Shown one piece after another: positions 8,318-11,537 of a stretch of 64,000 bases of DNA (positions are counted from its first letter, which is position 1; each line of letters begins with the position of its first letter). A program made the position numbers and the translations under genes. Origin of the DNA: Ectopseudomonas composti. Its GTDB lineage: Bacteria; Pseudomonadota; Gammaproteobacteria; Pseudomonadales; Pseudomonadaceae. The notes under the pieces are model-generated. The model was not told the DNA's origin. It worked only from the letters and a program-made list of their open reading frames with translations, and searched no databases. The stretch covers positions 62,001 to 126,000 of the forward strand of contig NZ_FOWP01000001.1 in assembly GCF_900115475.1 (NCBI RefSeq), given 5' to 3'.

Positions 8318-9310
8318 TCACCACCCTACGCCGACACCGATCAGGTAGTGCCGGTCCGACACGGTCTGCCCCTGCGCTCGCAGTTGGTCCAGCTCATAGA
8401 GCAGCGACAGGCGTGCCCACTGGTTGAGGCGATAGCGCAGGCCGAACTCACTGTCGAGCACGTAGTCGATCGTATCGACATGCGGGACCTGCAGCTCGGC
8501 GTTGGCATAGAACTCCAGCCGCGTACCCCACAACAGGCGCTTGTAATCCAGCTCCAGCGATGTGGTGTTGAAGGCCAGGTCGGCGACGTCCGACTCCAGA
8601 CGCACGCGGTTGAACTGAGCGATCAGATCGAAGCGGCCCAGTTCGTCATCCCAGAAGCGATAACCAGGGCCGGTGCCAACGATGCGCTGACGGTCGATGG
8701 TTTCGAACTCATCCTCGGCCTGCTGCACCCCCATCCGCCAGAACCAGTGCTCGGAGAGAAAACGGTCAAGGTCGTATTCCAGCTCCCAGTTGTCCTCGAC
8801 CTTCCTGTCGTTCTTGGTTTCACGCTCCAGCTCGCCACTGAGCACATGCCGCCAACGCCCGTGTTCGACCCGGGTGTTGCCCTTGAGCTTCCACTCGTCG
8901 ACGTCATTCTGATTGCGCTTCATGTCCAGCTTGGCGTCGAGGTTACCCTCCCAGAGGCGGTCCTCCAGTAACGGCCGCGGCGGCACCAGACGCTTGATCT
9001 GCGCCAGCGGCAGTATGTATTCACGTTCACCCTGTACGCGGACCATGCCGCTGCCAGCAGCCGCCAACCTTTCGCTGCGTTCGTTGTCGAAACCGCTGCG
9101 ACGCACCAGCAGGGGCTTGTCCGAGCTGAGGGTATCGATATCCTTCCAGTCGATCAGTACCTGGCCAGCGTATTTGGTCTTGAGCGCCAGCTTGCCGCCA
9201 TCGAGCAGGATGATGTCACCACTGAGGCGATCCCCGTTGTCCAGCCACACGGTATCGGCCCAGGCCGGGGCGGCCAGGATAAGCAAGAACAAGGCGACCA
9301 GTGCGCGCAT
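8318..9310 (-). CDS. DUF481 (YdiY-like) outer-membrane protein, paralogue 2
   Basis: 330 residues from the ATG at 9310, chosen because it begins a good signal peptide (MRALVALFLLILAAPAWA, then DTVWLDNGDRLSGDI); the open frame extends 42 codons upstream without homology. Shares the DTVWL(K/D)NGDRLSG start, the acidic middle, the GTGPGYRFWDDELG core and the GVGVGW end with the upstream-located paralogue. Tandem duplication is likely. Its start is only 16 bases from the divergent atl start, so the two genes' promoters must overlap each other's 5' regions. Confidence 0.85.
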   Translation of the reverse strand: MRALVALFLLILAAPAWADTVWLDNGDRLSGDIILLDGGKLALKTKYAGQVLIDWKDIDTLSSDKPLLVRRSGFDNERSERLAAAGSGMVRVQGEREYILPLAQIKRLVPPRPLLEDRLWEGNLDAKLDMKRNQNDVDEWKLKGNTRVEHGRWRHVLSGELERETKNDRKVEDNWELEYDLDRFLSEHWFWRMGVQQAEDEFETIDRQRIVGTGPGYRFWDDELGRFDLIAQFNRVRLESDVADLAFNTTSLELDYKRLLWGTRLEFYANAELQVPHVDTIDYVLDSEFGLRYRLNQWARLSLLYELDQLRAQGQTVSDRHYLIGVGVGW

Positions 9311-9326
9311 GATAAGGACGCATCCT

Positions 9327-9701
9327 ATGAGCAAGACGAAGCCGCCAGAGTCTGCATGGCAGGCACCGCCACCGGCAAGCGTGGAGGCGCGCCGCGAAGC
9401 GCTGTATCTGGTCTTGGCACAGGTACCGCAAGGCAAGGTCGTCAGCTACGGTGAACTGGCGCAGTTGGCCGGCCTGGGCCGCGCAGCGCGCTGGGTAGGT
9501 CGCACGCTGAGCCAGTTGCCGGATGGCACCACGCTGCCCTGGCATCGGGTGATCGCCGCAGGCGGCCGCCTCAGCCTGACCGCTGGCAGCCCTTCTGGTG
9601 CCGAACAACGGGCGCGCTTGCGCGCAGAGGGCATCAGCATCCTGAACGAACGTGTGGATATGCGTCGTCACGGCTGGCGCCCGATGGAGCACAGCAGTTA
9701 G
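9327..9701 (+). CDS. Alkyltransferase-like protein (ATL), active-site Cys replaced by Trp
   Basis: 124-residue single-domain homologue of O6-alkylguanine DNA methyltransferase. The helix-turn-helix and arginine finger region (SYGELAQLAG, then RAARWVGRTL) is intact, but the methyl-acceptor motif PCHRV reads PWHRV, with Trp72 in place of Cys. This is the hallmark of ATL proteins (E. coli YbaZ, S. pombe Atl1), which bind alkylated guanine and hand it to nucleotide excision repair instead of reversing it. ATG at 9327 with AAGGA 8 bases upstream. The stop TAG begins TAGAGTGCGCGC, a half-copy of the local repeat. Confidence 0.9.
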   Translation: MSKTKPPESAWQAPPPASVEARREALYLVLAQVPQGKVVSYGELAQLAGLGRAARWVGRTLSQLPDGTTLPWHRVIAAGGRLSLTAGSPSGAEQRARLRAEGISILNERVDMRRHGWRPMEHSS

Positions 9702-9740: not shown

Positions 9741-11537
9741 ATGCCACGCAAATCCTGGCGAGAAGCCCTCGCCACCTATGCCAACCCCGCCACACTGGCT
9801 CTTCTGCTTCTGGGGTTCGCCGCCGGCCTGCCCTACATGCTGGTGTTCTCGACCCTTTCGGTATGGCTACGCGAAGCCGGTGTAGCGCGCGAAACCATCG
9901 GTTTCGCCAGTCTCATCGGTCTGGCCTACGCCTTCAAATGGGTGTGGGCGCCGATGCTCGACCAGTGGCGCCTGCCACTGTTGGGCAAGCTCGGCCGGCG
10001 CCGTTCCTGGCTGGTGCTGTCACAGGGGCTGGTCGCCATCGGCCTGATCGGCATGGCCAATTACGACCCACAGACGCACCTGTCTTCGCTGATCGCTCTG
10101 GCCGTACTGGTAGCCTTCGCCTCGGCCACCCAGGACATTGCAGTCGACGCCTATCGCCTGGAGATTCTCGGTGATGAACACCAGGCTGCGCTCGCCGCCG
10201 CCTACATGACCGGCTACCGCGTCGCCGCACTGCTGGCCACCGCTGGCGCGCTGTACTTCGCCGAAGGCTTCGGCTCCACCGCCAAGGACTACCAGTTCAG
10301 CGCCTGGACCGGCACCTACATGGTCTTCGCCCTGCTCATGCTGCCAGGCCTGCTCACCTCCATCTGGATGCGTGAGCCACCGGCACCGCCACACATTCAC
10401 GTCGCCCCGCCCAAGCACGGTTTTTTCCACCAGTTGCTGGCGATCAGCGCGGTGATCGTACTGATCATCTCCGTGCCGACCATGTTCATCCAGTTCTACC
10501 AGAGTGACCTGATGCCCATGCTGCTTGGCGACGTCAGCATGCACGAGTTGCTCTACAACGACCGCGCCTTCCTGCGCGCCATGCTCTACAGCACCCTGGC
10601 CTGCGTATGCGCATCCGGCTTGTTCTGGGGCGGGCTGGCGCCTGTGCTGAAAACGGCTGCGGCAAAGTACGGCTTCTTCCATCAGCTGCTCTCCGTACTG
10701 CTGCTGATCATCCTGCTGATTGCCATACCGGCCATGGTCACCCAGTTCTACGAGAGCGACCTGAACCTGGTCTTTCAGGGTCAGCTGAGCCTGCAGGATC
10801 TGCTCTACTACGACCGAGCCTTCCTCCGTGCCCTGCTCTACACCCTGCTCACAGCCCTGTCCATTTCCAGCCTGTTCTGGGGTGGCATGGCACCGGTGCT
10901 CACACCGATCAACGACTTCATCGTGCGTTATCGCTGGCAGGCGCTGCTACTACTGAGCCTGATCGCCACCTATCGCCTGTCCGATACCGTGATGGGCGTG
11001 ATGGCCAACGTCTTCTACATCGACCAGGGCTTCACCAAGGAGCAGATTGCCAGCGTCAGCAAGGTCTTCGGCCTGGCAATGACATTGCTCGGAGCGGGTG
11101 CCGGCGGCCTGCTGATCGTACGTTTCGGCATCATGCCGATCCTGCTGATCGGTGCAGCCGCATCGGCGGCCACCAACCTGCTGTTCATGCTTCTGGTGGG
11201 CATGGGCCCGCACCTGAACATGCTCATCGTCACTATCAGTTGCGACAATTTCAGCGCAGGCCTGGCCACCTCGGCGTTCGTCGCCTACCTGTCGAGCCTG
11301 ACCAACCTGAAGTTCTCCGCCACCCAGTACGCCCTGCTCAGCTCCATCATGCTGCTGCTGCCGCGCCTGATCGGCGGCTACTCCGGGGTGATGGTGGAAA
11401 GCCTCGGCTATGCGCACTTCTTCCTCGCCACCGCACTGATGGGCATACCGACACTGCTACTCATCGTCGTCCAGTGGCGTCGCGACAAGCGCCAGCCACT
11501 GCCCGATACGATGCCGCCTGCGGTAGACAAGGCCTGA
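9741..11537 (+). CDS. ampG: AmpG muropeptide permease with an internal 84-residue duplication
   Basis: Major-facilitator inner-membrane permease that brings GlcNAc-anhydroMurNAc peptides into the cytoplasm for cell-wall recycling and AmpC induction signalling. N-terminus has NPATLALLLLGFAAGLPYM and the FKWVWAPMLDQW loop typical of AmpG. 598 residues, about 100 more than E. coli AmpG (491) and near the length I recall for P. aeruginosa PA4393 (594). The extra length is a tandem duplication: residues 225-308 and 309-392 align without gaps at about 56% identity (GFFHQLL, QFY(Q/E)SDL, DRAFLRA, FWGG(L/M)APVL in both). In-frame and under selection. Confidence 0.93.
   Translation: MPRKSWREALATYANPATLALLLLGFAAGLPYMLVFSTLSVWLREAGVARETIGFASLIGLAYAFKWVWAPMLDQWRLPLLGKLGRRRSWLVLSQGLVAIGLIGMANYDPQTHLSSLIALAVLVAFASATQDIAVDAYRLEILGDEHQAALAAAYMTGYRVAALLATAGALYFAEGFGSTAKDYQFSAWTGTYMVFALLMLPGLLTSIWMREPPAPPHIHVAPPKHGFFHQLLAISAVIVLIISVPTMFIQFYQSDLMPMLLGDVSMHELLYNDRAFLRAMLYSTLACVCASGLFWGGLAPVLKTAAAKYGFFHQLLSVLLLIILLIAIPAMVTQFYESDLNLVFQGQLSLQDLLYYDRAFLRALLYTLLTALSISSLFWGGMAPVLTPINDFIVRYRWQALLLLSLIATYRLSDTVMGVMANVFYIDQGFTKEQIASVSKVFGLAMTLLGAGAGGLLIVRFGIMPILLIGAAASAATNLLFMLLVGMGPHLNMLIVTISCDNFSAGLATSAFVAYLSSLTNLKFSATQYALLSSIMLLLPRLIGGYSGVMVESLGYAHFFLATALMGIPTLLLIVVQWRRDKRQPLPDTMPPAVDKA
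10413..10916 (+). repeat. Tandem 2 x 252-bp coding duplication inside ampG
   Basis: Unit 1 is 10413-10664, unit 2 is 10665-10916, each 84 codons. The DNA has diverged much more than the protein, so the duplication is old. Each unit encodes a hydrophobic helix, a polar loop of about 30 residues, and another hydrophobic helix. Confidence 0.85.

Follow-up and report, generated by a model that had tools for sequence, protein, structure and literature searches.

The AmpG transporter encoded in a 64,000-nucleotide stretch of Ectopseudomonas composti DNA (the window) carries two tandem copies of an 84-residue unit between its two six-helix bundles. The linker likely arose when a two-helix transmembrane hairpin was duplicated in tandem and in frame, one long unit being doubled once; the protein would then have about 16 membrane helices, with the added hairpins in an accessory role.

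Tandem Repeat in the Window AmpG

MFS transporters have six helices per bundle. The window ampG gene (9741..11537, forward strand, as are all features given here) encodes a 598-aa AmpG-family muropeptide MFS transporter, which matched TIGR00901 with 478.4 bits (cut-off, 350) over residues 13–576, i.e., across both bundles, and the superfamily model MFS_1 (PF07690) with 63.3 bits (gathering score, 33.4); scores against the narrower NCBIfam equivalogs PRK11010 and PRK11902 (235.1 and 255.1 bits) were below their cut-offs of 756 and 656. We consider this protein an AmpG-family transporter, with muropeptide uptake as a putative function assigned from the family match. An ampF-like gene (9342..9701; start chosen within the open reading frame 8913–9701), encoding a 6-O-methylguanine DNA methyltransferase DNA-binding domain (PF01035, E = 6.6e-21), is located upstream of ampG with a gap of 39 nt; an ampF-ampG operon is known in P. 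aeruginosa (PMC3022710). The window's genome also encodes two more AmpG-like proteins that scored under the family cut-off (235.5 and 175.9 bits; G000:C7:4654-5829 and C7:109820-110962) and are candidate AmpP-like or siderophore-type transporters.

Unit 1 (L1; residues 225–308, 10413..10664) and unit 2 (L2; residues 309–392, 10665..10916) align without gaps, with 44 of 84 residues identical and a period of 252 nt. The sequence-only reading that preceded this analysis had placed a gapless 84-residue tandem duplication at exactly these residues, and its count of 44 identities was right, but the number of positions compared is all 84 rather than 79. When the protein was compared with itself, offset 84 stood out, with 44 identities in the best 80-residue window against 18 for the runner-up (offsets 20–399); the BLOSUM62 local score between L1 and L2 was 243, far above 2000 shuffled controls (mean 27.8, s.d. 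5.2, maximum 57). The motifs GFFHQLL, QFYxSDL, DRAFLRA, and FWGGxAPVL, listed by the same reading as shared, are indeed present in both units. A repeat finder reported three direct-repeat pairs with a spacing of 252, while Tandem Repeats Finder did not report the L1/L2 repeat; given the latter result, a DNA identity of 66% between the units, and a pS of 0.54, the duplication is not recent. In a search of the window's genome (E up to 0.001), the only match of the unit pair was the pair itself. An origin of the unit from the transporter's own helix pairs was rejected, as single units showed no profile similarity to four core segments (E = 0.07 to 0.61).

Structure prediction reproduced the repeat in a fragment model (184 residues, 23 sequences; pLDDT 69, pTM 0.61), in which both units presented the pattern helix, two short helices, helix. 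In unit 1, the predicted helices comprise residues 227–254, the short helices 257–261 and 267–273, and a helix from residue 275; in unit 2, they comprise residues 311–338, the short helices 341–345 and 351–357, and residues 359–382. The full-length model, on the other hand, reached only pLDDT 47 and pTM 0.32 (23 sequences, the other 22 being 78–96% identical to the window protein). No sequence or fold relation of the units to any solved hairpin was detected: a Foldseek search with the fragment model yielded no relative (best E = 2.6), a profile of AmpG units had no match among PDB chains at E up to 10, and no Pfam family matched the units above its cut-off.

Position in the Linker and Membrane Topology

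The solved AmpG chains 9c3f and 8zgz align to residues 10–214 or 11–214 and to residues 386–577 of the window AmpG, locating the N-terminal six-helix bundle at residues 21–212 (9801..10376) and the C-terminal six-helix bundle at residues 393–577 (10917..11471); the comparison covers these two chains, whose alignments were shown, and the AmpG entries 9j9z and 8zbb matched too. Because the two chains have 12 residues between the aligned parts, compared to 171 in the window AmpG, both units represent an insertion between the bundles, the place of the insert in the POT and DHA2 transporters with linker hairpins. The net length excess is smaller than the insert, as 8zgz (494 residues) continues for about 90 residues after the alignment ends, a stretch that the window protein lacks. 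The earlier proposal of two added helices with topology kept holds relative to a single-unit relative; relative to 9c3f and 8zgz, both units are extra and the number of added helices is four.

Membrane crossings of this region have been measured in P. aeruginosa, where PhoA/LacZ fusions to PAO1 AmpG placed residues 221, 290, and 368 in the cytoplasm and residues 255 and 338 in the periplasm (PMC3022710). We mapped these positions on L104, an AmpG with a linker of 155 residues (180 in the window AmpG). Nine strings from 8 of 12 published PAO1 clusters (PMC5154545) sit in L104 at their published positions (24, 53, 87, 125, 364, 405, 497, 522, and 541); L104 need not be P. aeruginosa itself, and we took the PAO1 linker length as that of L104 because the motif positions agree. 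On this map the fusions fall in the linker as two out-and-back hairpins. By analogy, the hairpin loops of unit 1 (residues 255–274, 10503..10562) and unit 2 (residues 339–358, 10755..10814), as delimited in the fragment model, may be periplasmic, with the PhoA-positive fusions at P. aeruginosa residues 255 and 338 (PMC3022710) as their respective counterparts. We read each unit as a two-helix membrane hairpin, with the two crossings per unit taken from the P. aeruginosa experiments; a published model disagrees, placing the central 167 residues of PAO1 AmpG outside the membrane and treating only TM 7 and 8 as non-conserved (PMC5154545). The window AmpG most likely has about 16 membrane helices (6 + 2 + 2 + 6), which is our own sum, as compared to the 14 of Kong et al. 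(2010), who treated two predicted C-half helices as false positives (PMC3022710).

Distribution of Hairpin Number

The unit pair, used as a query, matched 393 of 398 genomes of the genus. Among the matches listed, the whole pair (all 168 residues) was matched in 16 of the 398 genomes and the others span about one unit; genomes beyond these were assigned one unit from E-values of ~1e-24 to 1e-18. The five genomes without a pair match include three with a P. aeruginosa-like short double linker, one with a partial AmpG piece, and one with a weak match. The span of the family match, available for 144 genus genomes among the matches listed, was 1437–1443 nt (single unit) in 131, 1692–1695 nt (double) in 7, 1500–1506 nt in 4, and 1617 nt (short double) in 1, with 1 partial match; these classes were anchored on extracted loci (L125 and L126 single at 1437–1443 nt; two of the four at 1500–1506 nt single). 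No triple units were seen among the spans listed. Close relatives with one copy do not share the total length of the window protein: the one single-unit AmpG viewed whole (L026) has 504 residues, in line with the shorter span of most genus genomes. A genus trait was thus ruled out by these counts, and the earlier suggestion that it might be one, unremarked so far and present in P. aeruginosa too, fails on the same grounds, as well as on the different origin of the P. aeruginosa length (see below).

Both bundles were recovered from 209 of 217 loci (duplicates included; the sample is not random), of which 68 have no linker unit, 40 a single unit, 42 a double long linker, and 32 a double short linker; the remaining linkers include 25 of 90–121 residues from other gammaproteobacteria (most with one hairpin), a single linker with two unlike hairpins (L161), and one other. 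With 29 different linker sequences carrying the double unit across the 42 double-long loci, a strain oddity or assembly error was ruled out. The 22 loci found with the pair query include P. chengduensis, P. alcaliphila, P. oleovorans, P. mendocina, P. guguanensis, P. khazarica, P. toyotomiensis, P. composti, P. sediminis, P. yangonensis, P. indoloxydans, P. indica, and P. matsuisoli, as well as other Pseudomonas strains. An ampF-like gene was present in the ampG locus, which varies in length, in 42/42 double-long, 40/40 single-unit, and 28/32 double-short loci. Three genus members with the short double type (L132 in G235, L133 in G126, and L134 in G172) group with the genus g18 in core trees, possibly reflecting ampG transfer or a lineage of uncertain placement. 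One AmpG match (G040:C1:2327551-2328762) ends at profile position 338 of 417 in an open frame of 440 residues; this ampG is possibly truncated or frameshifted.

P. aeruginosa AmpG (PA4393) has 594 aa (PMC3022710, PMC5154545), as the sequence-only reading noted; the similar length appears to stem, however, from different insertions, i.e., a 155-residue linker and about 20 residues in the C half. P. aeruginosa-type linkers hold two short units in about 148–158 residues, as compared to two 84-residue units in the 180-residue window linker. The two short units (S1 and S2) match each other in a profile comparison (E = 2.4e-18). As judged from the published motif positions, the P. aeruginosa length may be explained by a pair of short, diverged hairpins together with the 20 or so residues of the C half. 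The P. aeruginosa-type proteins L102–L106 carry about 20 extra C-bundle residues near the equivalent of window residues 489–491, and the same excess in C-half spacing is evident from PAO1 positions 419 and 544 (PMC5154545).

In many other gammaproteobacterial AmpGs (L174, L177, L182, L157, L144, and similar), the corresponding position is occupied by a linker of about 100 residues. Kinship of their hairpin to the Pseudomonadaceae unit was not detectable (E = 0.085) despite the same position, and this linker may represent either a second origin or extreme divergence. In a gammaproteobacterium outside the Pseudomonadaceae (L161, G599:C23:19367-21061), a 177-residue linker appears to hold two hairpins, the second of which matches the usual gammaproteobacterial hairpin (E = 1.6e-20). 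The first matched neither that hairpin nor the Pseudomonadaceae unit (E = 0.51 and 0.28), and a match of the first half to the second (4e-05) consists only of 10 residues shared by both cuts. Scans of viral contigs for more diverse AmpGs yielded no relatives.

Selection on the Units and Their Role

Both units are under purifying selection in all nine comparisons made between the window and 9 of the 22 pair-query loci. Omega ranged from 0.036 to 0.225 for unit 1 and from 0.047 to 0.188 for unit 2, with 0.014–0.142 for the N bundle and 0.025–0.180 for the C bundle; dS was >1, near saturation, for L061 and for unit 1 of L060, and these two proteins (6 and 5 residues longer than the window protein, respectively) were compared at fixed positions. 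L1, L2, and single units all retain the motifs DRAFLR and APVL.

A P. aeruginosa PAO1 ampG mutant was complemented by the AmpGs of E. coli (491 residues), V. cholerae (462), and A. baumannii (415) (PMC5154545). By their lengths and the solved AmpG chains, these proteins appear to be without the hairpin; the same study predicts 14 helices for E. coli AmpG (PMC5154545). Because these shorter AmpGs work in P. aeruginosa, transport probably needs no hairpin, and the hairpins are probably outside the transport path. They are most likely accessory linker helices; this term may be wrong, since deletion of the linker helices in Rv1410/MHAS2168 abolished transport (PMC10576003). The complementation, along with a hairpin number that varies among relatives (0, 1, or 2), would also suit an extra hairpin that is neutral baggage, tolerated in a flexible linker at no benefit. 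We find this somewhat unlikely given the low omega of both units and the conservation of DRAFLR and APVL, although selection could be for folding alone.

History of the Duplication

L1 and L2 formed one group (support 100/97), nested among single units, in a tree of 64 units with outgroup. This tree rejected the groupings L1+S1 (p = 0.0002), L2+S2 (p = 0.0099), L2+single (p = 0.0045), and L1+single (p = 0.014), and S1+S2 stood (p = 0.138, not rejected). In a 49-unit tree with no outgroup, L1+L2 was supported at 100/99.8 and S1+S2 at 94/88, but rival groupings were at the border of rejection or stood, with p-values of 0.052 (L1+S1), 0.165 (L2+S2), 0.048 (L2+single), 0.048 (L1+single), and 0.061 (L2+single+S2); both trees are built on 84 columns with long branches, and for the 64-unit tree the program warned of few columns and of long branches meeting. 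Mean identities were 55.8% (L1–L2), 57.6% (L2–single), and 44.2% (L1–single), a mixed picture that is expected if unit 1 changed faster. Copies of L1 cluster across species (100/99 and 100/100), as do copies of L2 (96/86 in the 64-unit tree; 67% of bootstrap trees with 49 units), so there is no continuing conversion between the units. Core trees united the double-long proteins at only 58 and 73/78, with P. indica, PIC25, and P. matsuisoli joining the window's group at only 73/78, and did not show the order of the 0-, 1-, and 2-unit states.

These trees make it likely that one duplication occurred in the window's group, separate from the P. aeruginosa-type doubling. A single ancient doubling at the base of the Pseudomonadaceae, from which most lineages later lost one unit while gene conversion made L1 and L2 alike in the window's clade, is unlikely by comparison; it would account for the two homologous hairpins of P. 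aeruginosa-type AmpGs, fits the L2+S2 grouping and, at the border, L1+S1 when the outgroup is left out, and is compatible with core trees that give no order of states, but it conflicts with the high L1+L2 support in both trees, the rejection of L1+S1 and L2+S2 with the outgroup, and the clustering of each copy across species.

Discussion

Under the duplication that we favor, the ancestral state in the window's relatives would be one long unit. A single doubling, placed in an ancestor of the mendocina/oleovorans/indica/matsuisoli-like lineages, would have yielded the 6 + 2 + 2 + 6 arrangement. With two membrane crossings in each unit, the orientation of the C-terminal bundle would be preserved. 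The hairpins would sit beside the two bundles, a packing that we infer, rather than form the muropeptide path, and may tune stability, lipid contact, or partner contact. A broader and more tentative possibility is that the linker of AmpG acts as a module open to repeated expansion: Pseudomonadaceae may have acquired a hairpin that was then doubled on two or more independent occasions (long and short types), another gammaproteobacterium appears to have two unlike hairpins, and forms with about 16 helices may recur since linker hairpins do a selected job, e.g., keeping the bundles in place or binding a partner in the periplasm. That the hairpin loops specifically form a new periplasmic surface docking a partner, e.g., an enzyme releasing or trimming anhydromuropeptides, seems improbable. 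In its favor, the loop is longer by about 20 residues in the long units than in the short type, each unit has two predicted short helices and a conserved DRAFLR, and the loop between TMA and TMB of Rv1410 is among the parts passing lipid to periplasmic LprG in simulations (PMC10576003), but the conservation could be structural.

A word search ("duplicat") of the main texts of PMC3022710, PMC5154545, and PMC6287161 found no mention of the duplication, nor did titles and the beginnings of abstracts mention a duplication inside AmpG or a 16-helix MFS transporter; this search covers openly available text, with subscription work, likely including the solved AmpG structures, outside its scope, and the repeat may have been noticed there. 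If confirmed, the window AmpG would be a clear case of a transporter gaining helices by a tandem duplication that copied an accessory pair rather than a whole bundle. The near-equal length of the window and P. aeruginosa proteins, stemming from different insertions, corrects a simple assumption. With natural versions carrying 0, 1, or 2 hairpins on alignable bundles in one bacterial family, and a published fusion map as an anchor, AmpG offers a series in which the role of add-on MFS linker helices could be tested; some working POTs are without such helices (PMC10215352), while Rv1410 needs them (PMC10576003).

Among AmpGs, the single-hairpin protein of most sampled genus genomes belongs to the same family and has the same 84-residue unit at the same position, differing in having one unit only. 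P. aeruginosa AmpG likewise has its insert between the bundles, which in P. aeruginosa-type loci consists of two hairpins homologous to the window units, and its fusions fit two crossings each (PMC3022710); its units differ in being without about 20 hairpin-loop residues, and its doubling looks separate. In bacterial POT peptide transporters, too, helices 6 and 7 are separated by a membrane hairpin of two helices, missing in 5% of the sequences analyzed in one study (PMC10215352); unlike the window AmpG, they have one hairpin, and a sequence relation to the AmpG units was not found (solved chains, E up to 10). The 14-helix DHA2 transporters, e.g., Rv1410/MHAS2168, carry linker helices A and B between TM6 and TM7, at the place of the AmpG insert; in contrast to the window AmpG, they carry one pair, which is required for lipid transport (PMC10576003).
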